NCBI GenBank assembly: GCA_001897155.1
Contig: MKSF01000004.1
Coordinates: 1 to 64,000, forward strand
DNA: 64,000 nt
Direction: 5' to 3'
Source of the DNA: Bacteroidetes bacterium 47-18
GTDB taxonomy: Bacteria; Bacteroidota; Bacteroidia; Chitinophagales; Chitinophagaceae
The position numbers and the translations under genes are program-made. Below are positions 3,863 to 53,404 of the stretch, in pieces. The notes beneath the pieces are model-generated. The model was not told the DNA's origin, made no database searches, and saw only the letters and a list, made by a program, of their open reading frames with translations. Each line of letters starts with the position of its first letter. The first letter of the stretch is position 1.

Positions 3863-4741
3863 ATGTGTATAAAGACAGATGATCTAACTGTTTTTACACT
3901 CAGTGATTTTAATACAGACAACTATGGTTTCCTGATGTTCCCGATCGGACAGGCAGGGAATGTCAGCCCGGCTTTGCTTGCTGCACACAAACAGCAGTAC
4001 TACTCCGTTTTATATTGTAAAGATGGCAGCGGTACCGTACACGTGGATAAGGAAGTAATAGCGCTCCGGGAGGAAATGATTGTATGTATCAGTCCCCAGA
4101 GTGTATGCAGTTATGCTATTGATCCCGGTGCTGCCGGATGGATGATCTTTTTTTCCGAAGCCTTCTTCTCCCTGCGGTATAATGATAATGTGCTGCATCA
4201 TTTCAGTTGCCTCAGGAGTAGTGTGGTATGTAAGCACCTGCTTACGGGAGAGGCCGTTGCCAAATGGAGCTTTATAATGGACGTGATGTCGGAGGAGTAT
4301 AACGCCCGGAATACGGATGCCAGGAATGTGCTGCGCTCGTATCTCAATATCCTGCTATCAGAGCTGAACAGGTACCATCCCGTTGCCAGGCCGGCTGAAT
4401 ATACCGGGAGCGATAAGGAGCAGAAGGTCATGGCCTTTGAGAAGTTACTGGACAGCAATTTTCATAAGGAGAAGCTGCCTTCCTATTATGCCGGCTGCCT
4501 GCATATTTCCGTTAATTACCTGAACCGTATCTGTAATGAAAGAAGAGGGATGTCATCTGGTGACCTGATCAGGAAGCGGGTGGTGCTGGAAGCGGAAAGG
4601 CTGCTGCATTATACTGCCAGGAACATTTCGGAGATTGCTTTTGAGCTGGGTTTTGATAGTATTTCCTATTTCACTACTTTCTTTAAGAAATATACGGGCT
4701 TATCCCCGGAGGCTTTCAGGAAGCAGATGCGGTCGGTTTAA
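3863..4741 (+). CDS. AraC-family transcriptional regulator
   Basis: 292 residues. The N-terminal ~170 residues resemble a cupin-like AraC sensing domain. The C-terminal ~100 residues are a two-helix-turn-helix AraC DNA-binding domain, ending with the hallmark ISEIAFELGFDSISYFTTFF.KYTGLSPEAFRK. It follows the small Cys protein in the same direction, so it may be co-transcribed and may control the divergent copper operon. The inducer is unknown. Confidence 0.9.
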   Translation: MCIKTDDLTVFTLSDFNTDNYGFLMFPIGQAGNVSPALLAAHKQQYYSVLYCKDGSGTVHVDKEVIALREEMIVCISPQSVCSYAIDPGAAGWMIFFSEAFFSLRYNDNVLHHFSCLRSSVVCKHLLTGEAVAKWSFIMDVMSEEYNARNTDARNVLRSYLNILLSELNRYHPVARPAEYTGSDKEQKVMAFEKLLDSNFHKEKLPSYYAGCLHISVNYLNRICNERRGMSSGDLIRKRVVLEAERLLHYTARNISEIAFELGFDSISYFTTFFKKYTGLSPEAFRKQMRSV

Positions 4742-7804: not shown

Positions 7805-7915
7805 TATTCAGTGCGTGGTTTATTATGTGGTTTATACAGGTTATTAAATCAACGCCGGGCCACACTACTTAGTTGGGTGCTTTTCTGAATTTAGGAAATA
7901 TTTATGTTAAACTAT

Positions 7916-8180
7916 TAGTTTTGAATGAGTTAGGGGCATTGTTCGGAACTTTTGCAGGTACTGAAAATTCAGCTTATATGGGCCTGCTTATATTTCCCGG
8001 GAACAGGACCGGTAAAGCGTTAAAAGATCCGGTATGGCGGGTGTCTCCTGGAAAGTAGGAAAGATGACGCATTCAGAACCTCGGCGGGCCGTCCGGTAAT
8101 GATTGGGCATTGTTTCCAGTCAGGAGTACGAACAGGGTTAACAGAAAATGAGGCTGACCTTCCGGACAGCCTCATTTTCT
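7916..8180 (+). other. Promoter-to-hairpin stretch without a clear gene
   Basis: The 484-base gap 7805-8288 has no convincing protein gene. On the plus strand a TAGTTTTG -7 box (7916-7923) is followed ~220 bases later by a perfect 14-bp stem AGAAAATGAGGCTG / CAGCCTCATTTTCT (8143-8180). Only a 26-residue ATG ORF (7978-8058) lies between. It could be a small RNA or a tiny peptide gene. The hairpin may equally end the ecotin transcript on the other strand. Confidence 0.25.
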
Positions 8181-8288
8181 GACTATTGACCTATGGAAAA
8201 ATTAACAGGATGGCCGTATCCGGGAGAATATTCCTGCCGTTTGTCCATCCGGGCGTCAAATACTTATATGGATGTTCACACCTGCCGG

Positions 8289-8774
8289 TTATCTGGCCTG
8301 GGGCACAACTCCGGCCTCATAATCATCACCGTCTGTGGTATATATCTGGAACCTGACCTCATAGCCGTCAGGTACATAGATTACGATAGGGAGCCTGCCG
8401 TTGTAGTTGACCGTTGTTGCCTCTCCGGAGACGAACAGGTGCCGTTTAGGAAGGTCCGGGCAGCCCATTTGTGTGGAAAATGCGCCTCCCTGGGTCTTAA
8501 ATACATAATAGTCATATCCCCAACCCTGGAGATCTTTCTTTTCCAGTGTTCCTGTCAAGCCGTAATGATTACAGCCGTCTACTTCCATCTCTTTGCCCAC
8601 CCTGAATTCGATTTTTTTATGGGTGTCGTTTTTGGAATGCGGTACATCTATGATCATTTGCCGGTATCCTTTTTCCGGTTTGGGATACATAGAGATATCC
8701 ACACTTTTGGACTGTCCGAGCATGGTCAGGGTCATTGCTAGGGATGTGGCCAGCAGGCCGAGTCTTTTTTTCAT
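8289..8774 (-). CDS. eco: Ecotin, secreted serine-protease inhibitor
   Basis: 161 residues with a signal peptide (MKKRLGLLATSLAMTLTMLG). The ecotin fold is clear: YPKPEKGYRQ, EVDGCNHYG, the hallmark LQGWGYDYYVF, STQMGCPD, and YNGRLPIVIYVPDGYEVRFQIY. Cys68 and Cys105 correspond to the ecotin disulfide. In E. coli ecotin, the reactive site is STMMAC with P1 Met84. Here it is STQMGC, so P1 is Gln102. Ecotins are periplasmic dimers that block trypsin-like and elastase-like proteases. It is divergent from a TIMP-like gene. Confidence 0.92.
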   Translation of the reverse strand: MKKRLGLLATSLAMTLTMLGQSKSVDISMYPKPEKGYRQMIIDVPHSKNDTHKKIEFRVGKEMEVDGCNHYGLTGTLEKKDLQGWGYDYYVFKTQGGAFSTQMGCPDLPKRHLFVSGEATTVNYNGRLPIVIYVPDGYEVRFQIYTTDGDDYEAGVVPQAR

Positions 8775-8995
8775 AAGATATAGATTTTAGGTAACCTTTT
8801 TGCAGCGATCCTTTCTTTTTCAGGATGCCGTATTAGCATAGATGGTTCTTTGACCGGAAAGTTTAACTACCGTTGAAATTTTCGGCCAGGCTTCCGGATG
8901 CCAGGTACCGGCTGGGCGGTTTTACGGCAGTATTTTCTGAATAATACAGTTTTTACCGTACTTTTATGCTCATCTTTATAATAAAAAAAACGATA

Positions 8996-9484
8996 ATGAA
9001 CAGAATTTCTAAACTGGCGGGCCTCCTGGCGGGTACATTGCTTTCCCTGGCCGGCTATCAGGCGCTGGCCTGTTCCTGCCGCCCGCTTACTGTAAAAGAG
9101 GCCTATGATAATGCCCGCGTGGTCGTCATAGGAAAGGTGCTGAGCGTCAGATATCTTACCGGACCCGATGTCGTGGTTTCCAAGCCGGTGGACCAAATGA
9201 CCATACAGGAAAAATACCAGAATGGCATTACGGAAAAGATCGTCACCGTACAGGTTAAATCACGGATAAAAGGAAAGGAACAGGGCAGGATCATAGAGGT
9301 TACAACAGGCCTGGGTGGCGGAGACTGCGGCGTTCATTTTGAGGAAAACAAGGATTATATCATCTATGCCTATGCCAAAGAGGGAGGCAACGGCCGGTAT
9401 GCAACAGGTATATGCTCTACCACCAAGCCTTACACTAAAGCGGAGTGTAAGACACTGAAGAAAATAAAGAAGGGCAAGGCATAG
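8996..9484 (+). CDS. TIMP/netrin-module-like secreted protein
   Basis: 162 residues from the ATG at 8996. The signal peptide ends GYQALA, and the mature protein would begin CSCRPLTVKEAYDNARVVVIGKV. An N-terminal Cys-x-Cys followed by an OB-like segment is the pattern of tissue inhibitors of metalloproteinases, where Cys1 chelates the protease zinc. Further cysteines lie in GGGDCGVHF, TGICSTT and AECKTL. ALAC might instead act as a weak lipobox. Inhibitor function is inferred. It is back to back with ecotin. Confidence 0.7.
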   Translation: MNRISKLAGLLAGTLLSLAGYQALACSCRPLTVKEAYDNARVVVIGKVLSVRYLTGPDVVVSKPVDQMTIQEKYQNGITEKIVTVQVKSRIKGKEQGRIIEVTTGLGGGDCGVHFEENKDYIIYAYAKEGGNGRYATGICSTTKPYTKAECKTLKKIKKGKA

Positions 9485-39403: not shown

Positions 39404-40315
39404 ATGAAAGTAATCATTCCTCCTTTTTTAAAAAAAGGATCTCATATTACGATAGTATGCGCCTCGGGCTACCTGCCGTTTGAAAAATCGGAGCAGGCTG
39501 CCCGGGTGCTGGAGGAGTGGGGGTATAAAGTGACGCTGGGCACGACCACCCGTACTGAGAACGCCTATTTTTCCGGCACTGATGAAGAACGCCTGGCTGA
39601 CCTGCAGCGGGCGCTGGACCATCCCGATACGGACGCTATATTGATGGGGCGTGGCGGGTATGGCCTGTCCAGGATCATAGACCGGCTGGATTTCAGGAAA
39701 TTTAAAAAAAGGCCGAAATGGATCCTCGGATTCAGCGATGTGACCGTGCTGCAGGCCCATATTTTCAGTACGCTTCATATAGCCGCCATGCACGCGCCTA
39801 TGTGCAGCGCCTTTGCTGCCGAACATCTTGATCAGCCCCATATGAAGGCATACAGGAACCTGCTCCGGGGAAAGCAGATCCGGTACAGATTCCCGGGCCA
39901 TCCCCGGAATATCCCCGGCCAGGCTGAGGGGGTGCTGGTAGGCGGGAATCTCTGTATGCTGGCGCATCTTACCGGGTCGGCATCCGCATTGGACACCAGG
40001 GGTAAGATACTCTTTATAGAAGATATCGGGGAGCACCTTTACAAGGTGGACCGCATGCTGTACACCTTAAAGCGTTCCGGCCAGTTGGCGGAGCTGAAAG
40101 GGCTGATCTGCGGTAATTTTTCCGACATGGAAGATACGGTCCGTCCGTTTGGCCAGGAATTGCATGACATCATTTCCGCGCACGTGGCAGACCTGGATAT
40201 ACCTGTAGCCTTTGAGGTGCCCTGCGGTCACGAAACGGTCAATTATCCCCTTACCCTCGGAGCCTCTTACAGGCTTGAAACCACTAAAAAAGGAACTATA
40301 ATTCAGCAATTATAG
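39404..40315 (+). CDS. LD-carboxypeptidase, peptidase family S66
   Basis: 303 residues. The nucleophile is Ser111 in ILGFSDVT. The later GKILFIEDIGEHLYKVDRML gives the Glu, and VPCGHE the His of the Ser-Glu-His triad. This family trims the terminal D-Ala from tetrapeptides during peptidoglycan recycling; microcin-immunity members also exist. It has no signal peptide, so it is cytosolic. Last gene of the ACMSD-ABC-S66 operon; its final codons lie within the terminator. Confidence 0.92.
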   Translation: MKVIIPPFLKKGSHITIVCASGYLPFEKSEQAARVLEEWGYKVTLGTTTRTENAYFSGTDEERLADLQRALDHPDTDAILMGRGGYGLSRIIDRLDFRKFKKRPKWILGFSDVTVLQAHIFSTLHIAAMHAPMCSAFAAEHLDQPHMKAYRNLLRGKQIRYRFPGHPRNIPGQAEGVLVGGNLCMLAHLTGSASALDTRGKILFIEDIGEHLYKVDRMLYTLKRSGQLAELKGLICGNFSDMEDTVRPFGQELHDIISAHVADLDIPVAFEVPCGHETVNYPLTLGASYRLETTKKGTIIQQL

Positions 40316-40320
40316 TTCCT
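40291..40320. terminator. Terminator overlapping the end of the S66 gene
   Basis: Perfect 13-bp stem AGGAACTATAATT / AATTATAGTTCCT with loop CAGC. It includes the last eight codons, stop included, of the upstream gene. Confidence 0.8.
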
Positions 40321-40357
40321 CGGGCATTATCAGGATGGGAGCGGACTCCCTTTAGGT

Positions 40358-41272
<915 letters not shown>

Positions 41273-41475
41273 GAACAGTTTGTTTTGTTTTGTGTTTATT
41301 GAAAATAAGGGCTAAGTTATAAATTTTTTTTTGAGTAGCTATAGGGTAAACTGTTGTGAGATTGTCATGTTTATGTAGCGTACCTTGAAATGACGGAAAA
41401 TATTATTACATTTACACCAACTTTTACAGGAGGGGAGTGGATTTTCTATTTCCCTGTTTTTATTTTACAAGTATT

Positions 41476-42468
41476 ATGATTTTATTACAGTTGTTTGGGG
41501 CGGAAAAGATTCCCCTGATCAAAGAAGCATTGATGGACCTGGATGCGAAAGCGCCTCCTCTTATTTTATGGGCAGTACCATTTCTCATTTTTTTCTCCTT
41601 GCTGGAAATGCTGATAGCGTATCTGCAGGACCGGAAATATTATGAGGCAAAAGAAACCTGGGGATCGCTTTGGGTCGGCATCGGCAACCTTGTTATCAGT
41701 GCCGCGGTAAAGGTCGGGCTGCTGTATGTGGTGGTATGGATCTACAATCTTGTACCCTGGCGTATGGAACTTCATTATGACCAGTCGCCCTTCTCGTGGA
41801 GCTCTTACTGGTGGCTGTTCATCCCATGCTATATCATTTATGACCTGTGCAGCTACTGGGCGCATCGCATCTCCCATGAGCATCGTTTCTGGTGGGCTAC
41901 GCACGTGGTGCATCACAGCGGGGAGCATTACAACCTTACCGTTTCCTTCCGCCAGAGCTGGGTGCAGCACCTGAAGGTGATCTTCTTCCTGCCTATCGCG
42001 TTCATGGGCTTTCACCCGATTATCTTTTTTATCACGAACCAGGTAGCTGTATTGTTCCAGTTCTGGGTACATACGGAATATATCCGTAAGCTGCCTGCCT
42101 GGGTGGAATATGTCTTTGCCACACCTTCCAATCACCGTGTGCACCACGGATCCAATGAACAGTATCTTGATAAGAACTATGGCGCCACCTTTATCTTCTG
42201 GGACAGGATATGGAAGACCTATGAGCCGGAAGTAGAGCCTGTCAGGTATGGCATCACTACGAACATTGAGCAGAAATCCAATCCTATCTTTATTAATTTC
42301 CATGAATATAAGGACATACTGAAGGATATGCGGGAGGCCAAAGGGTTCCGCCAGAAATGGTTTATGGTATTCGGCAGCCCGGTGGCCATCTATGAGCGTA
42401 AGCTTAAGCAGCAGGATGCTGCCAGGGATGTGGACTCTGTAAAGGAGGTGAAGGAGGCAGCTTCGTGA
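41476..42468 (+). CDS. Sterol desaturase / fatty acid hydroxylase family membrane protein
   Basis: 330 residues from ATG 41476; the frame is open a little further upstream. Several hydrophobic helices flank three histidine boxes: HRISHEHRFWW, HVVHHSGEH and HRVHHGSNEQYLD, the di-iron site of the family. Members hydroxylate or desaturate lipids using O2. The late DRIWKTYEPE is also typical. Substrate unknown; sphingolipid or ornithine-lipid hydroxylation is possible in Bacteroidota. Confidence 0.92.
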   Translation: MILLQLFGAEKIPLIKEALMDLDAKAPPLILWAVPFLIFFSLLEMLIAYLQDRKYYEAKETWGSLWVGIGNLVISAAVKVGLLYVVVWIYNLVPWRMELHYDQSPFSWSSYWWLFIPCYIIYDLCSYWAHRISHEHRFWWATHVVHHSGEHYNLTVSFRQSWVQHLKVIFFLPIAFMGFHPIIFFITNQVAVLFQFWVHTEYIRKLPAWVEYVFATPSNHRVHHGSNEQYLDKNYGATFIFWDRIWKTYEPEVEPVRYGITTNIEQKSNPIFINFHEYKDILKDMREAKGFRQKWFMVFGSPVAIYERKLKQQDAARDVDSVKEVKEAAS

Positions 42469-42536
42469 TTCCCGGTTATTTTTGGACAGAAATAAAATTA
42501 TGATTGTAAAAATCATATTAATAATCAGAAAAAACT

Positions 42537-42544
42537 TATTTTTG
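42537..42544 (+). promoter_or_regulatory. -7 element of the DUF5606 gene
   Basis: TATTTTTG, exact consensus, 29 bases before the ATG. Confidence 0.5.
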
Positions 42545-42573
42545 CCAACCAAATTAAATTTTTATTAAAGATA

Positions 42574-43206
42574 ATGGAATACAGACATGTAGTTGCCGTT
42601 ACAGGCTTAAGTGGTTTATTTGTTTTAGTAAGTACGAAAAATGATGGCGCCATCGTTCGTAGTCTGGTGGATAACAGTATTAAATTCATCTCTTCCAGGC
42701 TGCACCAGATCACGCCGCTGGAGAGTATTGAAATTTATACTACAGAAGATAAGAATGTGCGCTTGCATGAAGTGTTTGAGCTGATAAAAAATGACGATGC
42801 GGAAGTGCTGGCATTGAACGGTAAGAAAGATGATAAGGCGTTCCGTGCATTGTTTGGCAAAATATTACCCTCTTTTGATACGCAAAGAGTATATACCAGC
42901 GACATAAAAAAAGTGTTCAAATGGTATGATATTCTGAAAAAAGCGGATATGCTTAACTTTGAATCCCTGAAGCAGGCTATCGCTGCCCAGTCGGTAGATG
43001 TGGGTGAAGTGGTACTGGATAAAAATGAAGATGAGGTGGCGTCTGCAGCAGCAGTAACGACAGAGGAAACAACGGAAGCGCCCAAGAAGAAAGCGCCTGC
43101 CAAGAAGAAAGCCGCTGCGAAGGCTGCTGAGGAAGCGCCCGCGAAAGAAGCCGCTCCCAAGAAAAAGACCGCAGCTAAAAAAACGGCTAAAAAGAAAGAA
43201 GATTAA
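42574..43206 (+). CDS. DUF5606 protein with Lys/Ala-rich histone-H1-like tail
   Basis: 210 residues. Residues 1-~150 are a DUF5606 domain (YRHVVAVTGLSGLFVLVSTK, FELIKNDDAEVLALNGKKDDKAFRALFGKILPSFDTQRVYTSDIKKVFKWYDIL). From ~170 to the end is a low-complexity tail of Lys, Ala and Pro (APKKKAPAKKKAAAKAAEE, APKKKTAAKKTAKKKED) as in histone-H1-like and HU tails. The tail suggests nucleic-acid binding. The domain's function is unknown. Confidence 0.9.
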   Translation: MEYRHVVAVTGLSGLFVLVSTKNDGAIVRSLVDNSIKFISSRLHQITPLESIEIYTTEDKNVRLHEVFELIKNDDAEVLALNGKKDDKAFRALFGKILPSFDTQRVYTSDIKKVFKWYDILKKADMLNFESLKQAIAAQSVDVGEVVLDKNEDEVASAAAVTTEETTEAPKKKAPAKKKAAAKAAEEAPAKEAAPKKKTAAKKTAKKKED

Positions 43207-43233
43207 TACACAGAATACTAAATGTCCATAATA

Positions 43234-43270
43234 AAAGCAGAGTAAGATAGATATTGTCTTCCTCTGCTTT
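43234..43270. terminator. Terminator of the DUF5606 gene
   Basis: Stem AAAGCAGAG / CTCTGCTTT extended by an inner AAGA / TCTT pairing. It lies 18 bases ahead of the TTG start of cca. Confidence 0.8.
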
Positions 43271-43287
43271 ATTAATTTAATTACAGC

Positions 43288-44721
43288 TTGAAGAGTACAT
43301 TGAATTTTTCCGCTGCGGAACTGACCCTGCTGCAGGCCATGTCCGATACGGCAGAGCGCCTTCAACTGGAGGCGTACGTGATCGGCGGCTTTGTCCGTGA
43401 TAAGATATTAGATCGTTATAATAAGGATATTGATGTGGTATGTATCGGGGACGGTATCGTGTTCGCCCGTGAGCTGGCGGCTACGATAGCCCCGCAGGCA
43501 AAGCTCAGCGTGTTCAAGACCTACGGTACTGCGCATTTCAGGTATAAGGATATTGATCTTGAATTCGTAGGATCAAGGAAAGAATCCTACAACAGGGAAT
43601 CCAGGAATCCCGTAGTGAGTCCCGGAACGCTGGAGGATGACCAGAAAAGGCGGGATTTTACCATCAATGCCCTGGCATTAAGCCTCGGCAAATCCGGTTT
43701 CCTGCAACTGATAGACCCTTTTGACGGGGTAGAGGACATACAGCTTAAGATCATCCGCACACCGCTCGAGCCGCAGCAGACCTTCAGCGATGATCCGCTG
43801 CGGATGATGCGTGCCATCCGGTTTGCCACGCAACTGAATTTCTACATGGAGGAAAAATGCTTTAATGGCATTAAGGCGGAAGCGCACAGGATCGGGATCA
43901 TTAGCCGCGAAAGGGTGGCCGTGGAGCTGAATAAGATACTGATGAGTGCCAAGCCGTCCATCGGCCTTGATCTGCTGTTCAGGACCGGCCTGCTGAAGCT
44001 CATCCTGCCGCAGCTGGCAGCTCTGTCCGGTACGGAATATATAGATAATAAAGGGCATAAGGATAACCTCTACCATACTTTCCAGGTAGTGGACAATATA
44101 GCGCAGCATACGGATAATTTGTGGCTCCGCTGGGCCGCTTTGCTGCATGACATCGGTAAAGCCCCCACCAAGAAATTTGAAAAAGGCACCGGCTGGACCT
44201 TTCATGGCCACGAAGTGGTCAGCGCCAGGATGGTCCCTAAGATATTTAATGACCTGAAATTGCCGCTCCATGATACGATGGAATATGTACGGAAGATCGT
44301 TTACCTGCATCACAGGCCTATTTCGCTTACCAAAGAAAATATTACCGACTCCGCGGTGCGGCGCCTGCTGTTTGATGCGGGAGACGATATTGATGACCTG
44401 ATGATCATGTGCAAGGCGGACATCACGTCCAAGAATCCCTCCAAGGTAGAGCGGTATCTCAAAAACTTCGACATGGTAGCCGAAAGGTTACGGGAGGTGG
44501 AAGAGAGCGATAAGATCCGGAACTGGCAGCCCCCGATCTCCGGCAATGAGATCATGGAAACATTTAACCTGCCGCCTGGTAAAGAGGTAGGGGTGATCAA
44601 GACCGCTATACGGGAAGCGATCCTGGATGGTGTGGTGAAAAATAATCATGAAGAGGCACACCGGTTTATGCTGCAATTTGTACAGGAGCATTACCCGCAG
44701 CTTATAGCAAAGCTGAAATAA
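43288..44721 (+). CDS. cca: CCA tRNA nucleotidyltransferase with HD domain
   Basis: 477 residues starting at TTG 43288. The nucleotidyltransferase head has VIGGFVRDKILDRYNKDIDVVC (GG...D-x-D) and RRDFTINALALSL. Then comes the RNA-binding neck (DDPLRMMRAIRFATQL) and an HD domain (LLHDIGKAPTK) in the C-terminal half. It adds or repairs the 3' CCA of tRNAs; the HD part suggests phosphohydrolase activity. Its last seven codons lie in a perfect palindrome shared with the convergent XRE gene. Confidence 0.93.
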   Translation: MKSTLNFSAAELTLLQAMSDTAERLQLEAYVIGGFVRDKILDRYNKDIDVVCIGDGIVFARELAATIAPQAKLSVFKTYGTAHFRYKDIDLEFVGSRKESYNRESRNPVVSPGTLEDDQKRRDFTINALALSLGKSGFLQLIDPFDGVEDIQLKIIRTPLEPQQTFSDDPLRMMRAIRFATQLNFYMEEKCFNGIKAEAHRIGIISRERVAVELNKILMSAKPSIGLDLLFRTGLLKLILPQLAALSGTEYIDNKGHKDNLYHTFQVVDNIAQHTDNLWLRWAALLHDIGKAPTKKFEKGTGWTFHGHEVVSARMVPKIFNDLKLPLHDTMEYVRKIVYLHHRPISLTKENITDSAVRRLLFDAGDDIDDLMIMCKADITSKNPSKVERYLKNFDMVAERLREVEESDKIRNWQPPISGNEIMETFNLPPGKEVGVIKTAIREAILDGVVKNNHEEAHRFMLQFVQEHYPQLIAKLK

Positions 44722-44744
44722 TATTATTTCAGCTTTGCTATAAG
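44701..44744. terminator. 44-bp perfect palindrome between convergent genes
   Basis: CTTATAGCAAAGCTGAAATAAT (22 bases, 44701-44722) is followed at once by its exact reverse complement. It includes the stop codons and last six residues of both cca and the XRE gene. It can act as a terminator hairpin in both directions. Confidence 0.9.
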
Positions 44745-45032
44745 CGCTTTTATCTGTTCGTCTTTTTCTTTAAGTTGTTCATTCTTTTCCTGCAGCTCGT
44801 TTCTCAGAGCCTCTATAAGCTGGGCATCTGTATTTGTATTGTTTGAATTATACTGACCACTATACGGGCTGTTGTGGAAATTCATGATGATGGGTGTAGG
44901 GCTTTTGATGTCTTCTATAGATACGCCCAATACTTCTGCTATTTTACTAAGCAGCTCATCGCTTACCTTTACCTTATTATCCTTTTCTATTTTGGAATAG
45001 CTCTGCTGGTTCAGCTCTATCTGCTTAGCCAC
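44724..45032 (-). CDS. XRE-family regulator with coiled-coil tail, 5' end apparently frameshifted
   Basis: The open frame from GTG 45032 gives 102 residues starting inside an XRE helix-turn-helix (VAKQIELNQQSYSKIEKDN...LLSKIAEVLGVSIEDI). The same frame continues upstream as SIRLARGYTQEYVAK without any start codon. An ATG at 45096 in another frame reads MYGTK. Removing one C in AGCCTC (45078-45083) would join them into MYGTKLTSISIRLARGYTQE, a normal XRE start. So there is a frameshift or a sequence error. The tail (LRNELQEKNEQLKEKDEQIK) is a coiled coil. Probable regulator of the adjacent fulvocin-like genes. Confidence 0.82.
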   Translation of the reverse strand: MAKQIELNQQSYSKIEKDNKVKVSDELLSKIAEVLGVSIEDIKSPTPIIMNFHNSPYSGQYNSNNTNTDAQLIEALRNELQEKNEQLKEKDEQIKALIAKLK

Positions 45033-45140
45033 ATACTCCTGCGTATATCCCCTGGCAAGCCTTATACTTATAGAAGTGAGGCTTTGTACCGTACATAATG
45101 ATAAAGAAATATATTTAATAAAAATAAACCGTTAACAGGG

Positions 45141-45174
45141 GTGTAAATTACACTAATTTCGGTGTAAGTTACGT
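45141..45174. promoter_or_regulatory. Tandem 13-bp operators between XRE gene and fulvocin-like operon
   Basis: GTGTAAATTACAC at 45141-45153 is a perfect palindrome. GTGTAAGTTACGT at 45162-45174 is a near copy. Their centres are 21 bp apart, two helical turns, in the divergent promoter region. A near-consensus -7 box (TATTTTCG, 45208-45215) follows for the rightward genes. The likely binder is the neighbouring XRE protein. Confidence 0.65.
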
Positions 45175-45249
45175 CATTAAGTTTTTATTTTCAGCAGCGG
45201 GAGATACTATTTTCGTTTCGATAATATTTTTTTAAACTCTTAAACGAAT

Positions 45250-45906
45250 ATGAAAATGGGAAAAGAAATTTTAAAGCTGTTAACTGTAGTTGCCCTGGTA
45301 ATGGGTACTTTGGGGTCTTGTAAAAAAGAAGCGGGATTAAAGTATTCCTGTGATGAAAACATCCATCAGTTCGTCTCGCAGCACCTGGACTCTTGGGAAG
45401 GCATCACCCTGGAAAGGATCAATATGTATGGTATTGATACCCAGAGAGCGATCTTTAATGCTATTTCTGATGAGAATAAAGCGGAGCTATGGAGAGCAAA
45501 AATGGAGTATATAAAGGCCACTGAAACATTGTCACCAGATATGGAAACGCATCTGGATATTTTGAGAGATATGATAACGCCGGATATATATTCGGATTCG
45601 ATGCTGGCAGATGCTGTTGTTTTGTATGTAAATGATCATGTTAAGTCTTTGATAGCTAACGACACATTAATCACATACTACCTTTACACACTATTTACAT
45701 ATGAGCCATTTGGAGAGTTTATGAATAATTTTTATGAACAATCAACGCCTCTTGATGCCAAAAAGAATTGTCACTGTACTACAGAATCCATTTTTGATTG
45801 TCCTTTGGTTTCATTTCATAAGTGTAATAGTGGCGCTGACTGCGATCCAACCTCTTGGGGGTGTGGTTTTGGATGGGTATGGCCATGTAATGGACGTTGT
45901 GAGTAA
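45250..45906 (+). CDS. Fulvocin C-related bacteriocin-like lipoprotein
   Basis: 218 residues. A lipobox (LGSC, Cys24) anchors the precursor. Residues ~30-165 are mostly helical and unlike anything I know. The last ~48 residues hold eight cysteines: 174, 176, 184, 192, 198, 205, 213, 217. The pattern CxC-(7)-C-(7)-C-(5)-C-(6)-C-(7)-C-(3)-C and the segment GCGFGWVW...CNG follow fulvocin C, the 45-residue four-disulfide bacteriocin of Myxococcus fulvus (GCGTGWVY...CNG, from memory). The tail may be released as an active peptide. First of three genes, with two thioredoxin-like membrane proteins. Confidence 0.82.
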   Translation: MKMGKEILKLLTVVALVMGTLGSCKKEAGLKYSCDENIHQFVSQHLDSWEGITLERINMYGIDTQRAIFNAISDENKAELWRAKMEYIKATETLSPDMETHLDILRDMITPDIYSDSMLADAVVLYVNDHVKSLIANDTLITYYLYTLFTYEPFGEFMNNFYEQSTPLDAKKNCHCTTESIFDCPLVSFHKCNSGADCDPTSWGCGFGWVWPCNGRCE

Positions 45907-45939
45907 TTTTATAGTTTTTAAACTTAATAAATATTTATC

Positions 45940-46797
45940 ATGTCTGTGTATAGAAAAATTGGGAGTCTGCTTATAGCTACTTGTCTTGTTATGATATTTG
46001 AGCTAAGCACAGGATGGGTAAGAGCGTTTAATGCTCAGCTTGATCTGATCGTAATGTTTGTTAAGTATTTAATACTCACATTACTGATTCTGAAATACCG
46101 GTCACGGTATTTCAGAATCTATATAATAGGATTTGCATTGTTTTGGGGAGTATTGGGTTTGGTAATGCCTTTATATACTTTTTTTACCAAAGGTCATCTT
46201 AAAGACTTTCTTGCTTTCCCGAATATTTTATCTGCAGTAACAGGTGTTGTTTCGGGATTTATTATCTCCAGAAATAAAAATAAGAGCAAGAATGTAAGGA
46301 TATTATTAGTGTTAGTGCCTCTTGCATTGTGTACATTTTTTTATTTCAATCATTCTTATTACTATGATTTTATTTTTCATACAACCCTGGATGCTAAAAA
46401 ATATATAGATGAAAAAAAAGAAGTGTTTGAATTAACAGATAGGCAGGCTAATAAAGTAAAGTTAGATAAGGATAAATATATAGTAATGGATTTCTGGAAC
46501 ACTCAGTGTATGATTTGTTTTGAAAAGTTTCCTGCTTTTGAAAAACTATATGAGCAGTATAAGGATCATCCGGAGCTGCAATTTTATGCGGTCAACAAAC
46601 CTTTGAGATCAGATACTTTTGACATCTTTAAAAGAACGGAAAAATATACATTTCCTTCGGTAAGAGGCTCAGGAAATATTGCAGAGGTTTTTGATGTAAG
46701 AGGATATCCTACCGTAGTGATAGTGAAGGATAACCGGATACTGCACAGCGGCAGTGTGGAAACTGCGGAAAGGTATATCAAAAAGCATATCCGCTAA
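45940..46797 (+). CDS. Membrane protein with C-terminal thioredoxin-like domain (CMIC)
   Basis: 285 residues. About five hydrophobic helices (residues ~8-135) with a conserved TGWVRAF...DLIVMFVKY motif, MauE/DoxX-like in style, put the C-terminus outside the cytoplasm. Residues ~165-285 form a thioredoxin/TlpA-like domain: VMDFWNTQCMICFEKFP with Cys190 and Cys193, and cis-Pro in GYPTVV. The usual W-C-x-P-C context is absent. It starts 33 bases after the fulvocin-like gene and is probably its disulfide oxidase or isomerase. AT-rich like its neighbours. Confidence 0.85.
   Translation: MSVYRKIGSLLIATCLVMIFELSTGWVRAFNAQLDLIVMFVKYLILTLLILKYRSRYFRIYIIGFALFWGVLGLVMPLYTFFTKGHLKDFLAFPNILSAVTGVVSGFIISRNKNKSKNVRILLVLVPLALCTFFYFNHSYYYDFIFHTTLDAKKYIDEKKEVFELTDRQANKVKLDKDKYIVMDFWNTQCMICFEKFPAFEKLYEQYKDHPELQFYAVNKPLRSDTFDIFKRTEKYTFPSVRGSGNIAEVFDVRGYPTVVIVKDNRILHSGSVETAERYIKKHIR
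46517..46796 (+). repeat. Near-identical segment shared with 47421-47700
   Basis: The 3' ~280 bases of this gene match those of the next gene (offset 904) with about 14 differences in the best ~235 bases, counted by eye, including at silent positions. The upstream halves of the two genes are clearly diverged. Confidence 0.88.
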
Positions 46798-46834
46798 GGG
46801 TGTCCTTGTATATTATGCCTTAAACTTTATGTGT

Positions 46835-47701
46835 ATGAACAACCTGGCAGACCTTAAAAAGATTATAACCCTTATAGTTTTTATTTTATTACTGCTCTTG
46901 TTTGAAGGAACTACTGGATGGGTAAGAAAATTTTATATGCAATATGACATAATAGTCATGTTTATCAAATACCTGCTCGTTTCTATTCTGGTTTTTAAAT
47001 ACAAAAAAAGGTTTACGAAAATATTTATCACTGCCTTTTGCCTGATGTGGGTTGTGTTGATTGCCTATATTGCTCCGCCCTTAAAAGAAATCGACCAACA
47101 TCCATTGTTATCTGTATTTTTTTCATTTCCCAATATACTCTCTGCATGTTTAGGTGTTTATGCAGGTTATGTATTTGAAATAAAGAAAAACAAAATAAAA
47201 GGTGCAATATTCTCCTTTGTTGTGATTCTATTGTGCATAGGTTTTTCTTTTAATAATACTTATTACTATCATTTTATTTCCCATACCAATTTCTGTCCCA
47301 AAGAAAAGATAGATGCGCAAAAAGATATCTATTCACTGCACGATGCTGATAGCAGGGAAATAATACTGGATAAGCATAAATATACGGTTATGGATTTTTG
47401 GCATACAAGCTGTTATGCCTGTTTTGAAAAATTCCCTGCTTTTGAAAAACTATATGAGCAGTATAAGGATCATCCGGAGCTGCAGTTTTATGCGGTCAAT
47501 AAACCTCTGAGATCAGATACTTTTGATATTTTTAAAAGAACGGAAAAATATACATTTCCTTCGGTAAGAGGTTCAGGAAATATTGCAGAGGTTTTTGATG
47601 TAAGGGTTTATCCTACCGTAGTGATTGTGAAGGATAACCGGATATTGCATAGCGGCAGCGTAGAAAGCGCGGAGAAGTATATCAGGAAGCATGTCCGGTA
47701 G
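46835..47701 (+). CDS. Membrane protein with C-terminal thioredoxin-like domain (CYAC), paralog
   Basis: 288 residues from ATG 46835. An in-frame ATG at 46829 is also possible, while the longer frame from 46754 would overlap the previous gene. It has the same layout as its neighbour: TGWVRKF...DIIVMFIKY, about five helices, and a thioredoxin-like domain with VMDFWHTSCYACFEKFP, Cys193 and Cys196. The domain from the second active cysteine on is nearly identical to the neighbour, while the membrane part has diverged. The dipeptide between the cysteines differs (YA against MI), which may tune redox potential, so the pair could split oxidase and reductase roles. Confidence 0.85.
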   Translation: MNNLADLKKIITLIVFILLLLLFEGTTGWVRKFYMQYDIIVMFIKYLLVSILVFKYKKRFTKIFITAFCLMWVVLIAYIAPPLKEIDQHPLLSVFFSFPNILSACLGVYAGYVFEIKKNKIKGAIFSFVVILLCIGFSFNNTYYYHFISHTNFCPKEKIDAQKDIYSLHDADSREIILDKHKYTVMDFWHTSCYACFEKFPAFEKLYEQYKDHPELQFYAVNKPLRSDTFDIFKRTEKYTFPSVRGSGNIAEVFDVRVYPTVVIVKDNRILHSGSVESAEKYIRKHVR

Positions 47702-47711
47702 CGTCTTTGTC

Positions 47712-47815
47712 ACCCTTTCAGGGTTGCATTAATAAATGTGCTTTATTTTATAATTATGGCACCGCTTCGCGGTTCTCATAATCTGAATTGAATATGTTAT
47801 CAAGCCCTGCGGGCT
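47712..47815. repeat. Three spaced mini-hairpins
   Basis: ACCCT-TTC-AGGGT (47712-47724), ACCGC-TTC-GCGGT (47761-47773) and AGCCC-TGC-GGGCT (47803-47815). Each is a 5-bp stem with a 3-base loop in an AT-rich spacer. They follow the fulvocin-like operon and may end it or belong to a dispersed repeat family. Confidence 0.6.
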
Positions 47816-47943
47816 GACACTATTCTATCCATTATTCTGGGGTTTGGGGCAGGATTACGGGCATTATTGTTAAGTCTTATCCTTTCCCTGCCTAAAATCA
47901 ACGTATTTTGTTATCTTAGTGCTTTGATCAATAAATATAAAAC

Positions 47944-48768
47944 ATGAAAAAAGTCATTTATTCTCTTGCATTATTGGTGAGTGTCGGAACGGCGGCCTTT
48001 GCCCAGGATATGAAAGTGCCCGTACCAAGCCCGCTGGCCACCTTTAAACAGGATTTTTCCACATCCTTTATTGAGATCTCCTACAGCAGGCCCTCAGCTA
48101 ACGGACGTAAGGTCTTCGGAGACCTGGTGCCGTACGGGGAAATATGGAGAACAGGCGCCAATAACGCTACGGTGGTTACCTTCGGAGAAGATGTTATTAT
48201 TGATGGTAAGACATTGAAAGCAGGAGCTTATTCCCTTTACTCCATACCCGGCGAAACTTCCTGGGATATCGTTTTTAACAGCAATACCGGGGGCTGGGGC
48301 ACCGTTAAGCCGCAAACGGATGTATTGAAAGTAAAGACCGCTAAGGTCAGTAAATCCAATTACTATGTAAATACCCTGAGCATTGATGTTAATAATATAA
48401 CCAATAATTCCTGTGAGATCGTGATCGCCTGGGAGAATACCGTAGCGGTATTACCGGTAAAAGTGGATAATGACAAGCGTATCACGGAGTATTATGAGAA
48501 CGCTATCAATAAGCCCCGTATTCCTTACCAGCAGGCCGCTCAGTATTACCTGTCCCAGGGCAAGGAGCTGAATAAGGCGCTGGCTTATACCGATAAGGCT
48601 ATTGAGCAGAACCCATCCGCATTCTGGTTGTACAGCCTGAAAGGAAAGATCTTATTTAAGCAGGGTAATAAAGCGGAAGCGGCGAAAGCCCAGCAGAAAG
48701 CTGTGGATATGTCTAAAGGCACACCTTATCATGCAGAGCAGGAAACCTTATTGAAATCTTATAAATAA
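47944..48768 (+). CDS. DUF2911 domain exported protein
   Basis: 274 residues with a signal peptide (to AAFAQ). The DUF2911 core is clear: SPLATFKQDFSTSFIEISYSRPSANGRKVFG, VPYGEIWRTGANNATVVTF, GETSWDIVFNSNTGGWG. The C-terminal ~90 residues are TPR-like helices (AAQYYLSQGKELNKALAYTDKAIEQNP...). Function unknown. Its stop is 15 bases before the NamZ-like gene, a likely operon. Confidence 0.9.
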   Translation: MKKVIYSLALLVSVGTAAFAQDMKVPVPSPLATFKQDFSTSFIEISYSRPSANGRKVFGDLVPYGEIWRTGANNATVVTFGEDVIIDGKTLKAGAYSLYSIPGETSWDIVFNSNTGGWGTVKPQTDVLKVKTAKVSKSNYYVNTLSIDVNNITNNSCEIVIAWENTVAVLPVKVDNDKRITEYYENAINKPRIPYQQAAQYYLSQGKELNKALAYTDKAIEQNPSAFWLYSLKGKILFKQGNKAEAAKAQQKAVDMSKGTPYHAEQETLLKSYK

Positions 48769-48783
48769 ACCTTGTTTCGCAAT

Positions 48784-50013
48784 ATGTATATGATCCGACG
48801 TCTCGCGCTTTGTGCTACCATTGCTGTCTTATCGGCCTGCAGCTGTACTGCCCGGACGGGTAATGCAGGGCAGCTTGCAGTTGCCCTGGAAAAAAGTGAA
48901 CCTTCCATACTTACGGGAGCCGACCAGGTTGATGAAATAGTAAAGATCGTCAGGGGGAAGCGGGTAGCCGTATTGGGGAACCAGACCTCTGTCCTGCGGA
49001 ATGGTACGCACCTGGTGGATACGCTGCTGGCGGTAAATATACATATTGCGAAAATCTTTACCCCGGAACATGGTTTCAGGGGAACAGCAGATGCCGGAGC
49101 TAAAGTGAAGGACGGTAAGGACGTTAAGACAGGTCTGCCTATCATCTCCCTGTATGGTAATAATAAAAAGCCCACTGCGGAGCAGTTGCAGGATGTGGAT
49201 GTGGTGATCTACGATCTGCAGGATGTGGGAGTGCGTTTCTATACGTATATCTCAAGCCTGGAGTATCTCATTGAAGCATGTGCACAGCATCAAAAAGAGC
49301 TGGTCATACTGGATCGTCCCAATCCTTTGGGCAATAAGATAGACGGCCCGGTGCTGGATAAGCAGCAAAGGTCTTTCGTGGGGATGCAACCCGTTCCGGT
49401 CGTATATGGTATGACACCCGCGGAGTATGCACGGATGATAATAGGAGAGAAGTGGGTAAAGGCGGACGGCCTGAAGCTGCATATCGTGCAGAACAGGCAT
49501 TATACGCACGACAGCTATTATGAGCTGCCGGTGGCCCCGTCTCCCAATCTTAAAAATATGACGGCTGTATTGCTGTATCCCTCGCTGTGCTTTTTTGAGG
49601 GGACGCAGATCAGCCTCGGCAGGGGAACTGCTACACCTTTCCAGGTGTACGGGCACCCGCTGCTGAAAAGTATCGGTACTTATGAATTTACGCCCCAGCC
49701 TGTGGAGGGCGCTATGAATCCGCCGCTGAAAGGTAAAACCTGCTATGGCGAGCTGGTTGCCGATACTGCAGAGCAGGCCAGCGACCTGACCGAAAGCGGT
49801 CTGAATCTTTCCTGGCTCCTGAAAGCCTATAAGGCTTACCCTGCTAAAAATGAATTTTTCCTTTCCGGTAATTTCTTTAACCTGCTGGCGGGTAATACGA
49901 CCCTGAAGCAGCAGATCATTTCCGGGAAAACAGAGGCTGAAATACGCCGGAGCTGGCAAAGCGACCTGGAAGCCTTCAGGGTGATAAGACAAAAATATCT
50001 GCTCTATCCTTAA
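48784..50013 (+). CDS. DUF1343 lipoprotein, NamZ-like exo-N-acetylmuramidase
   Basis: 409 residues from ATG 48784; a second ATG at 48790 is equally good. Lipobox VLSAC. The body matches DUF1343: VAVLGNQTSVL, IFTPEHGFRGTADAGAKV, GLPIISLYGNNKKPT, VVIYDLQDVGVRFYTYISSL, DRPNPLGNKIDGPVLD, CFFEGTQISLGRGTATPFQV.G. Characterised NamZ releases terminal MurNAc from peptidoglycan fragments. The assignment of activity rests on family membership. Confidence 0.9.
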   Translation: MYMIRRLALCATIAVLSACSCTARTGNAGQLAVALEKSEPSILTGADQVDEIVKIVRGKRVAVLGNQTSVLRNGTHLVDTLLAVNIHIAKIFTPEHGFRGTADAGAKVKDGKDVKTGLPIISLYGNNKKPTAEQLQDVDVVIYDLQDVGVRFYTYISSLEYLIEACAQHQKELVILDRPNPLGNKIDGPVLDKQQRSFVGMQPVPVVYGMTPAEYARMIIGEKWVKADGLKLHIVQNRHYTHDSYYELPVAPSPNLKNMTAVLLYPSLCFFEGTQISLGRGTATPFQVYGHPLLKSIGTYEFTPQPVEGAMNPPLKGKTCYGELVADTAEQASDLTESGLNLSWLLKAYKAYPAKNEFFLSGNFFNLLAGNTTLKQQIISGKTEAEIRRSWQSDLEAFRVIRQKYLLYP

Positions 50014-50075
50014 GAGCCGTCGTTAATAAGAAAGAATATGGAGGTTGCGGTGGAATGACAGGTATGGATATAAAA

Positions 50076-50433
50076 ATACAACTATACACTGCATAAGCCG
50101 GGTTCTGTGCGCAACATTGCTGTTGCGTGCTGTCATTTATCTTGACATAAGGTCGCCCTTATGTTCTATCTGCCTACCCGCAAGCAACGAGCGAGCAGCT
50201 CTTACCTGCTTGCCTATTGGGCATTTCATCGTACAAGGCTTGCCCGCGTACATTATTGCTAATATACACCGTGTGCTCTTACCACACATTTTCACCCTTA
50301 CCCCGTATGAGGCGGTTATTTTCTGTGGCGCTCTCTGTCAGTATAATATACTGCCCACCTGTTAGGTGGTGTACTGCTCTGTGATGCCCGGACTTTCCTC
50401 TATAAATAGCGACAACCTTCGTGTATAGTTGTA
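50076..50433 (-). ncRNA. rnpB: RNase P RNA (class A)
   Basis: On the minus strand the RNA starts with TACAACTATACAC, which pairs with GTGTATAGTTG at its 3' end (helix P1). Near the 5' end is GAGGAAAGTCCGGGC and near the 3' end ACAGAACCCGGCTTAT, the universally conserved P4 strands and neighbours. Length is ~358 bases. A near-consensus -7 box (TACCTTCG, 50444-50437) lies just upstream, overlapping the end region of queA. It cleaves tRNA leaders. Ends are set from the P1 helix. Confidence 0.95.
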
Positions 50434-50477
50434 CTGCGAAGGTACGTTAATTCTTTTACACCTTAGGCGGATTGCTG

Positions 50478-51728
50478 TCAGGTGTGGTCCGGCTGCGCTG
50501 TATGCTTCATTAAAAGGCAGCCGTCACCATAGCTCAGGAACCTGAAATGATTTTGCAGGGCAAAATCATACATAGTTCTCCACTCCGGTCCCAGGAATGC
50601 AGCGATCAGTAATAAGAGCGTGCTTTGCGGCTGGTGAAAATTGGTGACAATACCGTTGACGATCTTAAAATCATAGGGCGGGGCGATAATGATCTGCGTC
50701 CTGGTAATGAGCCTGGATTGACTGCGGGCCTCCAGGTAGCCGATTACCTGCCGGATAGCGTCCGCAGGCGCGAGCAGGGGATCTTCACATTCGTAGGGCA
50801 GCCATTGCGGTACGCTTATCTTCCCGAAATCAGGTATCTTATGATGCCCGATCTGCTGTCCTATCCAGAATAAGGATTCCAGTGTTCTGACGCTGGTAGT
50901 GCCTACCGCTATGACGGGGCGTTTGTTTTCCAGCTGATAGAGGAGTTGCCGGAGAAAGTCTATGCTGACTTCAATGAATTCGGGATGCATCTCGTGCCCG
51001 GCCATCGTAGCCGACTTGACAGGCTTGAATGTACCCGCGCCTACGTGAAGCGTTACTTTGGTATGCCGGATGTTCCTGCCGGCCAGGGAGGACAAGATAG
51101 CGGGTGTAAAGTGCAGGGCCGCGGTAGGCGCGGCGACACTTCCGGCTTCACTGGCAAAAATGGTCTGGTAGGTCTCTGTATCTTTTGCTTCCGGCGCCCT
51201 GTTAAGGTAGGGAGGAATAGGTATCTGTCCCGCAAGATGCAGCACTTCAGCAAAGGTCAGGGAGCTGTTCCACCGGAAATGTATCTCGTAGCCGTCAGAG
51301 AGCTGCCGGTGTATGGAGGCGGTTAGTTGCAGGCGGTCGTCATTGCTGGCGCAACTGACCGCTTCATCGTTTTTCCATTTGGAAGCGCCGCCCACCAGGC
51401 ATTTCCAGTACACTTCGACCTGCTGCTGCATGCCGGTCATAATATCCGGGTATTGTTCTGCCGGTTCCAGGCAGAATATTTCGATCCTGCCTCCCGTGGA
51501 TTTCCGGAAAAAAAGCCGCGCATTGACCACTTTGGTCTGGTTGAAGACTACCAGGCTGTCTTGTGGCAGGCAGCCGGCAATGTCCTTGTACTGCAGTACC
51601 ATGGGTTGTCCGCTGCGCCATACCAGCAACCGGGAGCTGTCTCTTTCACTTAGAGGGTATCTGGCTATCTTTTCCTGTGGTAAAATATAGTCGTAATCTT
51701 CTATTTTCAGATATTGAGGGTGTCGCAT
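50478..51728 (-). CDS. queA: tRNA preQ1(34) S-adenosylmethionine ribosyltransferase-isomerase
   Basis: 416 residues; some QueA proteins are shorter (~350). Hallmarks: YILPQEKIARYPL.ERDSSRLLV, DSLVVFNQTKVVNARLF, GQIPIPPYLNR, TYQTIFASEAGSVAAPTAALHFT, TLHVGAGTFKPV, EMHPEFIEVS and a late TNFHQPQSTLLLLIAAFLG. It adds the ribosyl group of SAM to preQ1 in tRNA, forming epoxyqueuosine. A strong terminator hairpin lies in its leader. Confidence 0.95.
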   Translation of the reverse strand: MRHPQYLKIEDYDYILPQEKIARYPLSERDSSRLLVWRSGQPMVLQYKDIAGCLPQDSLVVFNQTKVVNARLFFRKSTGGRIEIFCLEPAEQYPDIMTGMQQQVEVYWKCLVGGASKWKNDEAVSCASNDDRLQLTASIHRQLSDGYEIHFRWNSSLTFAEVLHLAGQIPIPPYLNRAPEAKDTETYQTIFASEAGSVAAPTAALHFTPAILSSLAGRNIRHTKVTLHVGAGTFKPVKSATMAGHEMHPEFIEVSIDFLRQLLYQLENKRPVIAVGTTSVRTLESLFWIGQQIGHHKIPDFGKISVPQWLPYECEDPLLAPADAIRQVIGYLEARSQSRLITRTQIIIAPPYDFKIVNGIVTNFHQPQSTLLLLIAAFLGPEWRTMYDFALQNHFRFLSYGDGCLLMKHTAQPDHT

Positions 51729-51770
51729 ATAAGGGTTGCCGGGATGATAAGTTGTTTATACGATGGTATT

Positions 51771-51804
51771 AAAAAAACCACTTCACTGAAAAATGTGAAG
51801 TGGT
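51771..51804 (-). terminator. Terminator hairpin in the queA leader
   Basis: On the minus strand ACCACTTCAC / GTGAAGTGGT forms a 10-bp stem with an 8-base loop and is followed by seven Ts. It lies 42 bases before the queA ATG. A second small stem (ACTTAC / GTAAGT) precedes it and a -7-like GAACTTTG lies upstream. The rest of 51729-52058 holds the leader and the hsp20 promoter region. Confidence 0.75.
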
Positions 51805-51990
51805 CGAGCTTTACTTACTAACCCATTGTAAGTGTAACAAAGTTCGTATTTTTTGTGAATTTCTGAAAATAAATTTTGAAACTCTTCAAAAAAACTTTTT
51901 TATGCAATAATGTCGGTTCTTGTTGATTATTGGTGACTTTTTGTCATATTTCTTCTTTGGAATCCGGTGGTTTTGGCATAAAACGGGCCG

Positions 51991-52006
51991 TGGTATCTTA
52001 TTTGCA
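51991..52006 (+). promoter_or_regulatory. Sigma-54-like promoter upstream of hsp20
   Basis: TGGTATCTTATTTGCA has the -24 GG and -12 GC with exactly 10 bases between, against the consensus TGGCAC-N5-TTGCW. It is 52 bases ahead of the ATG of the small heat-shock gene. Confidence 0.5.
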
Positions 52007-52058
52007 TTGCTTATTCTGAACATTATTTCGAATTAAACATTAAAAACAGCTAAATATT

Positions 52059-52487
52059 ATGAAAACACAAATGAATGTTTCGCCCAAGATGATCGGTAAT
52101 TTATTGGATGATGTATTTGGTAACGATGGCCTCCTGATGTCAAGAGGATTCCGGTCCTTTGCCAAAAATCCGCCGGTAAACATCAGCAAATCAAAAGAAG
52201 GGTATGTATTGCAGTTGCTGACCCCGGGCATTAATAAGGAATTGGTGCATATTGATGTGGTCAACAATGTGCTGAAAATAAGCTATGAGCATAAGGAAGC
52301 TATTGCCGAGGATGTCCAGGTAGTGAAAAATGAGTTCCTTGTGGGATCATTTGAGCGGAGTTTTTCCCTGGACTCCAAAATGGATGTGGAGGGTATCAGC
52401 GCAAGGTATGATAATGGTATATTGAGCATTGATATTCCCCTGAAGCAGGAAGAGCAGCCTAAAGAGATCAGGATCAATATCGGCTAA
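52059..52487 (+). CDS. Small heat-shock protein, Hsp20/alpha-crystallin family
   Basis: 142 residues. The alpha-crystallin domain covers ~40-142: PPVNISKSKEGYVLQLLTPGINKELVHIDVVNNVLKISYE, FLVGSFERSFSLDSKMDVEGISARYDNGILSIDIPLK. The terminal IRINI tail fits the I-x-I motif used for oligomer docking. It is an ATP-independent holdase. A sigma-54-like promoter precedes it. Confidence 0.95.
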   Translation: MKTQMNVSPKMIGNLLDDVFGNDGLLMSRGFRSFAKNPPVNISKSKEGYVLQLLTPGINKELVHIDVVNNVLKISYEHKEAIAEDVQVVKNEFLVGSFERSFSLDSKMDVEGISARYDNGILSIDIPLKQEEQPKEIRINIG

Positions 52488-52618
52488 TACAGTACAGGCA
52501 GGCATTTTTTACAAAATACTTAGATGAAATTTATCTAAGTATTTTTTTCTTTATTAAAGAATAATCTTAAATTTATTCTTTAATTACACAGTAACACTTT
52601 TAAAACTTAAAGAAGAAG

Positions 52619-53404
52619 ATGAAAAAAATTTTATCAGCGATTGCATTGACTGCTGCGTTAGGCACACAGGTGAATGCCCAGGTATTCACGCTGGAGTACC
52701 AGCACAACTCTGAAGATACAATAGTTACAAACGGCTCTGTCCTTGATGTAAAGCCAACTATAAAATTAAACCTGGAGCCGGGTATAGACAGCTTTACCTA
52801 TAAATGGCAGTTTACTGAATTTTCTCTGCCGTCTGACTGGGATGCGCAGGGATTATGTGATAATGTTATCTGCCACCCTTATAAGGTGGGCGGTGTTGTA
52901 AATGATTATTTTAAAACCCCGTTTGCCGAGTCTCCTGTTTCTGCCTGGACATTGAATGATACCAACGCTTTAACGCCTTCCGACCTGATCTACGTCTGGT
53001 TGCAGGTTGAGCCTGGTGATACCAACGGATTTGGTGTATTCAAATATAAGATCATAACGGAAACGGTACATCCCCTGAGCGCGCAGCCTGCCAATCCCCA
53101 GGAAGTGGAAGTGGTGCACATTGTACATAAAGATGGCGGGGTATCCGTAAATACCATTACCATTCCTGAAAACGCCATCAGGTTATATCCTAATCCTGCT
53201 ACCGGTGTTTTAAACGTGGATATAGCCTCTGACCTGAAAGTAACCACCGCGAAAGTTGTGGATATGCAGGGTAAAGTAATACTGACTGCGCCGATGAACG
53301 GTAAAAGTATTGACATTCAGCATTTGAACAGCGGGATGTATGCGGTAGATTTTCTGAATGCGGATGGTGTGAAACTGACCACACGTAAATTCGTTAAGCA
53401 ATAA
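52619..53404 (+). CDS. T9SS-secreted hypothetical protein with type A sorting domain
   Basis: 261 residues: signal peptide (to QVNAQ), a ~150-residue beta-rich domain with no family I recognise (two cysteines in GLCDNVICHPYK), and a type A T9SS sorting domain (IRLYPNPATGVLNVDI...SGMYAVDFLNADGVKLTTRKFVKQ). Exported through the T9SS. Own terminator. Confidence 0.85.
   Translation: MKKILSAIALTAALGTQVNAQVFTLEYQHNSEDTIVTNGSVLDVKPTIKLNLEPGIDSFTYKWQFTEFSLPSDWDAQGLCDNVICHPYKVGGVVNDYFKTPFAESPVSAWTLNDTNALTPSDLIYVWLQVEPGDTNGFGVFKYKIITETVHPLSAQPANPQEVEVVHIVHKDGGVSVNTITIPENAIRLYPNPATGVLNVDIASDLKVTTAKVVDMQGKVILTAPMNGKSIDIQHLNSGMYAVDFLNADGVKLTTRKFVKQ

Follow-up and report, generated by a model that had tools for sequence, protein, structure and literature searches.

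The question raised by this locus is what two genes for membrane-bound thioredoxins do directly behind the gene of a bacteriocin-like lipoprotein. The locus lies in a 64,000-nucleotide stretch of contig MKSF01000004.1 of Bacteroidetes bacterium 47-18 (the window), and an earlier note had proposed that it specifies an anchored or released antibacterial peptide of the fulvocin C kind with its own disulfide machinery. The three genes share a strand, are separated by 33 and 37 bases and probably constitute one unit (Table 1), downstream of which lies a DUF2911 gene. The same genome holds a second fulvocin-thioredoxin pair at a contig end (L018 1-2200, contig 18), of which the precursor is 34% identical to that of the window; this copy is also flanked by a divergent HTH gene, though the two HTH proteins show little similarity to each other (25% identity across 79 residues, E 0.003).

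Table 1. Coordinates of the cassette and its candidate regulator in the window
Feature	Position	Strand	Evidence
Divergent HTH gene, candidate regulator	44724..45032 (open frame extends upstream to about 45101)	-	PF01381 34 bits, over cut-off
Lipoprotein precursor related to fulvocin C, 218 aa	45250..45906 (stop included)	+	NF033852 106.5 bits, cut-off 35
Predicted lipoprotein signal peptide, residues 1-23, before lipobox Cys24	45250..45318	+	lipobox LGSC by pattern alone
Family-specific helical domain, roughly residues 65-165	45442..45744	+	NF033852 match start; helices in low-confidence model
Eight-cysteine tail, last 48 residues, fulvocin-like peptide (predicted boundary)	45760..45903	+	pattern, BLASTP, HMM
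Membrane thioredoxin 1, 285 aa; CxxC at 46507-46518	45940..46797	+	PF00578 35.7 and PF00085 30.2 bits, both over cut-off
Stretch of thioredoxin 1 just behind its CxxC, common to the end of thioredoxin 2	46521..46797	+	base comparison
Membrane thioredoxin 2; CxxC at 47411-47422	46835..47701 (alternative start 46829)	+	PF00578 29.8 and PF00085 28.6 bits, both over cut-off

The precursor and its eight-cysteine tail

Comparison with curated models established that the precursor is a member of an already-named NCBI family, NF033852 (fulvocin_rel, 'bacteriocin fulvocin C-related protein', NCBIfam), for which membership is a score above the curated cut-off, and the tail itself is not new; the alignment joins residues 65-218 to model positions 1-150 of 150. 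When the PDB was queried with a profile of the precursor, nothing better than E 0.078 was returned, and two AlphaFold predictions, each from a two-row alignment, had mean pLDDT values of 51.8 and 51.0, too low for the models to be of use. The likeness of the tail to fulvocin C, as claimed in the earlier note, was confirmed: BLASTP aligned it with the intact precursor of a Myxococcus-family genome (L056) at 47% identity over 45 columns, and its kinship to myxobacterial precursors exceeds mere cysteine spacing, since an HMM built from 12 tails of myxobacteria and actinobacteria scored it at 33.5 bits as compared to a maximum of 16.0 bits among 1000 cysteine-fixed shuffles. The tail was also 48% identical to the fulvocin C peptide in its reported sequence, and an HMM of 13 tails, that of the window included, scored this reported peptide at 30.3 bits (maximum of 500 cysteine-fixed shuffles, 15.9 bits). 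When genome_contigs was scanned with the reported peptide and two tails, two loci were confirmed among 102 pattern matches, one in Actinopolyspora biskrensis (52%) and the other in Myxococcus sp. CA023 (best segment 90%), where the copy is decayed, with its halves in different frames. The DNA of Myxococcus sp. CA023 agrees with the reported sequence save for its final residues: both Myxococcus DNA (L031 about 6990-7140) and intact L056 (9289-9906) encode a tail ending in WVYACNGDCLY. The published peptide reportedly ends in WVYCACNGNFY, and the old chemical sequence may misplace the last cysteine, or strains may differ.

The eight-cysteine pattern was found in the window and in 36 of the 37 sequences examined overall, comprising 21/21 from Bacteroidota, 8/8 from myxobacteria and 7/8 from actinobacteria (for which seven of 13 Streptomyces plasmid records were read), the broken L030 having been excluded beforehand; the exception, L075, carries eight cysteines at another spacing. 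The eight cysteines and the pattern GCG..W...CNG.C are conserved across phyla. Extensions at the C-terminus reach 31 residues. Scores above the NF033852 cut-off were obtained for 10/195 genomes of the window's family, 3/395 of its phylum and 8/395 of its class (overlapping samples, each including the window's own genome), for 7/59 genomes of the Myxococcus family and for 1/296 of the actinobacterial phylum, namely the genome at the centre of that sample. Among plasmids, L056 as query retrieved 13 Streptomyces records and one from Gemmatirosa, and the window precursor retrieved one from Bacteroides finegoldii. The Gemmatirosa plasmid encodes the helical domain of the family in a frame without a cysteine tail (L080 3929-4378; 27.4 bits, under cut-off), which may be a stand-alone protection protein or a remnant. 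No precursor relatives were found in phage records, and a phage origin was not adopted, as pattern scans of viral_contigs with the precursor, the tail alignment and thioredoxin 1, the reach of which is limited to close relatives, confirmed none; these blank scans carry little weight, since a scan of the same kind of genome_contigs with the window precursor was equally blank despite the existence of relatives. Copies L030 and L031 and the remnant in L105 are broken and L023 is shortened, which suggests loss. In a tree of 34 rows, from which L071, L023 and L078 (short) and L030 (broken) were left out, the myxobacterial, actinobacterial and L029 rows grouped together (98/96), and the Bacteroidota rows were poorly resolved, with long-branch warnings.

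A scattered occurrence with broken copies is what a dispensable accessory trait, for instance a bacteriocin, would show, and this, with the conservation of the cysteine pattern across phyla, argues against the alternative that the Bacteroidota precursor is not a weapon, being instead an envelope lipoprotein whose cysteine-rich end is, for example, a redox substrate or a binding module, and whose bacteriocin label is borrowed from one distant relative. To our knowledge, activity has been reported for fulvocin C alone, and both the lipid anchor and the C-terminal extensions can be accommodated without release of the tail. This alternative also draws on the DUF1573 genes that lie in the same cassette at six loci, these being L019, L020, L021, L027 and L028, which scored over cut-off, and L072, where the gene is annotated (seven candidates were tested, L024 and L030 falling under cut-off); none was recognised beside the window cassette. 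Selenoprotein forms of DUF1573 are listed in a review (PMC9312934), a hint of redox work. We regard a non-weapon role as possible, if somewhat doubtful.

Architecture of the two membrane thioredoxins

As the earlier note had described, each of the two genes behind the precursor pairs a membrane part of five hydrophobic segments with a CxxC thioredoxin domain. The second most likely starts at ATG 46835 or 46829 and not at GTG 46754. In the two proteins the loops held 2/4/4 and 0/5/3 lysines plus arginines at the inner side and 1/2/2 and 2/1/2 at the outer, charges that mostly favour the predicted position of the thioredoxin domains outside, in line with the extracytoplasmic location proposed before. 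This predicted orientation is firm for the window's two proteins only, because a crude hydropathy count gave their relatives between 4 and 7 segments. ResA was the best curated match and the best solved structure by sequence, with ResA and StoA as the nearest curated models; against the ResA equivalog-level model NF002854 the two scored 41.5 and 39.8 bits, under its cut-off of 170. ResA and StoA are reductants, so the two proteins may also act as isomerases, or confer immunity by reduction; the CxxC dipeptides, which vary among the membrane thioredoxins, give no indication of redox direction.

Base comparison of the two genes gave 37-72% identity up to about 46520, then 87-98% over four 60-base blocks and 76% in the last block. 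Either gene conversion or a partial duplication would explain redox halves kept alike beside divergent membrane halves.

Recurrence of the fulvocin-thioredoxin pairing

The linkage was surveyed at 22 Bacteroidota loci (the window, L018-L030, L065-L071 and L072) with a thioredoxin HMM built from eight proteins that sit at seven of these loci, for which the result is circular. It matched the next same-strand ORF at 14/22 loci as compared to 5/370 other neighbour ORFs, one of these five background matches being the window's own second thioredoxin; taken over the 19 loci that have a next same-strand ORF, 14/19 against 5/370 gave a Fisher p of 8e-18. Among loci outside HMM training, seven of eight had a membrane thioredoxin next, three of the loci (L066-L068) being from one genus. 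Recurring linkage of these gene types in other genomes was one of the two findings on which the earlier note had made itself depend, similarity of the tail to fulvocin C being the other, and both were obtained.

That the thioredoxins might be unrelated neighbours carried on AT-rich islands appears very improbable against a link so frequent, directly downstream and on the same strand, and against membrane parts that are 7-42% identical to that of the window's thioredoxin 1. Such a reading could appeal to the loci that lack the partner and to composition, as cassettes were AT-richer than their flanks in 12/12 relatives compared. The AT-richness noted earlier for the window held (GC of 39.0% for the precursor and 33.7 and 34.1% for thioredoxins 1 and 2, as compared to 48.2% for the window), but the transfer that had been read from it has composition as its one indication, and the second copy of the genome is not AT-rich, matching its contig (44.9 and 44.6%).

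The recurring link is neither universal nor exclusive. A membrane thioredoxin was missing next to the precursor at 8/22 Bacteroidota loci (L020, L022, L023, L024, L028, L029, L030 and L069); at L020 and L024 a small membrane protein, by our reading, takes its place, and that of L020 was too weak a match (E 0.023) to be accepted as a stand-alone membrane part. At L029, two TlpA-like and ABC-transporter-like genes, read by eye, point away from the fulvocin gene (6462-9304). No such neighbour was found at any of the eight myxobacterial loci, where ORF calling was so coarse that even the precursor of L058 escaped it, and these loci as read have no partner gene common to all, two pairs of close relatives sharing neighbours. 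With the membrane part alone as query, 20/195 genomes of the family were matched at E 0.001, including eight strong matches (E below 1e-28) at fulvocin loci that are themselves rows of the query. The three best of the weaker matches were inspected, the other eleven being at 23.8 bits or less, and all three proved to be full-length frames, L105 with a tail remnant in front and L103 and L104 with none. L103 (5104-5931) and L104 (4903-5733, behind a lipoprotein gene) carry thioredoxins of this type with no fulvocin gene in sight, and an exclusive partnership with fulvocin genes was accordingly rejected. At L105, a fulvocin tail remnant at about 4550-4700 is followed by an intact membrane thioredoxin and then by a small, seemingly DUF1573-like lipoprotein. 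The word 'dedicated', which had been applied to the window's thioredoxins, is too strong given the loci on either side of the pairing where one partner occurs without the other; either the thioredoxin is not needed everywhere, or it is supplied from elsewhere.

Other thiol-redox domains accompany the family. L071 carries a DCC1-like gene (64.3 bits, cut-off 27.8) that overlaps the start of a tail-only protein, itself just under the NF033852 cut-off at 34.8 bits, and a membrane thioredoxin gene comes after. In 7/8 actinobacterial proteins, two of the seven being nearly identical, a CxxC domain is fused at the N-terminus, ahead of a hydrophobic segment that RR or RK precedes, and may be cytoplasmic by virtue of that placement. 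Its motif resembles DCC1-like proteins, a name (PF04134) that found no support for it, as L032 scored 16.2 bits against the cut-off of 27.8, L074, L075 and L079 gave no match at E 0.1, and profile comparisons gave 3 and 6% probability. In three Streptomyces plasmids (L073, L076 and L077) the annotated fulvocin start seems too far downstream, and the open frame upstream of it holds the CxxC domain.

A domain carried by the precursor itself, mostly before the hydrophobic segment, would be odd for immunity, and it is this, along with the myxobacterial loci that have no such gene, that makes it unlikely that the membrane thioredoxins serve as immunity proteins, reducing, at the membrane of the producer, disulfides of the mature peptide that general envelope enzymes had formed. 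The case for such a role lies in their being membrane proteins beside a bacteriocin-like gene where no other immunity gene was recognised, in the kinship of their nearest curated models to reductants, and in the window's membrane halves, which differ where the redox halves are nearly alike.

Proposed function and relation to known systems

On balance, and with moderate confidence, we favour a precursor of the fulvocin type in which the cassette's own membrane thioredoxins oxidise or proof-read the tail, this tail being either displayed on the envelope or cleaved to yield an antibacterial peptide; that the thioredoxins handle the disulfide bonds of the peptide is probable, because the same gene pairing recurs in relatives. 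The precursor would be exported and lipidated, comprising a lipid anchor, a helical domain and, at the C-terminus, the eight-cysteine peptide of about 48 residues, and the thioredoxin domains, at the outer face of the inner membrane, would act on the thiols of the tail, most likely forming or correcting its disulfides. The tail could then act while anchored on the envelope, or after cleavage as an antibacterial peptide. The lipoprotein route would need no special exporter, and reading the ORFs of 40000-53000, five proteins of which were searched against family libraries, we saw neither an ABC exporter nor an immunity gene, as had been stated before. Our best guess for self-protection is the helical domain, which is also kept in myxobacteria.

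A broader proposal, which we offer as speculative and rather doubtful, would make fulvocin-type precursors multi-phylum single-gene weapons with the helical domain as built-in self-protection and a tail that coevolves with its own thiol enzyme, gained more than once: in Bacteroidota as an adjoining membrane thioredoxin, joined in one lineage by a DCC1-like gene, and in actinobacteria as a fused CxxC domain.

The window's proteins share the thioredoxin domain with the ResA/StoA/TlpA thiol-disulfide oxidoreductases, which have one membrane anchor; the window's have five segments and lie far below the 170-bit ResA cut-off. Halocin C8, an archaeal system, is mentioned in PMC10864542. In its precursor, the N-terminal domain is reportedly the immunity protein and the C-terminal peptide is said to be rich in cysteine, so that the window precursor would resemble it in joining two such parts. 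Fulvocin C of Myxococcus fulvus was sequenced as a peptide in 1981, according to PMC8708641, and the library searched yielded no work on its gene family or on how it matures. Bacteriocins of the fulvocin type are defined as peptides of about 45 residues that are released from a precursor, contain four disulfides and kill or inhibit other bacteria; the window tail has the eight cysteines that four disulfides would require. The window precursor has the helical domain and eight-cysteine tail of NF033852 in common with it, and differs by a lipobox and by two membrane thioredoxin genes, the eight myxobacterial loci having been read without a thioredoxin neighbour. Thioredoxin-like helpers beside disulfide-bearing bacteriocins are known from Gram-positive clusters with an ABC transporter: PedC is linked to the disulfides of pediocin and a thioredoxin-domain gene adjoins that of bactofencin, where activity persisted in E. 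coli upon its deletion (PMC5465099), and BdbA/BdbB belong to sublancin, similar genes being found by pallidocin (PMC6405829). As in these, a CxxC thioredoxin-fold domain adjoins the peptide gene in the cassette, which differs by its lipoprotein route, by a membrane part of five segments and by the absence of a visible exporter. The precursor family is known, and the fulvocin-thioredoxin cassette is a new form of a known arrangement; the apparent novelty lies in the repeated presence of a thiol-redox partner beside fulvocin-type precursors. With such a partner, three genes in a laboratory strain are enough to put maturation to the test, and the partner would tie this class of disulfide-rich peptides to Bacteroidota.
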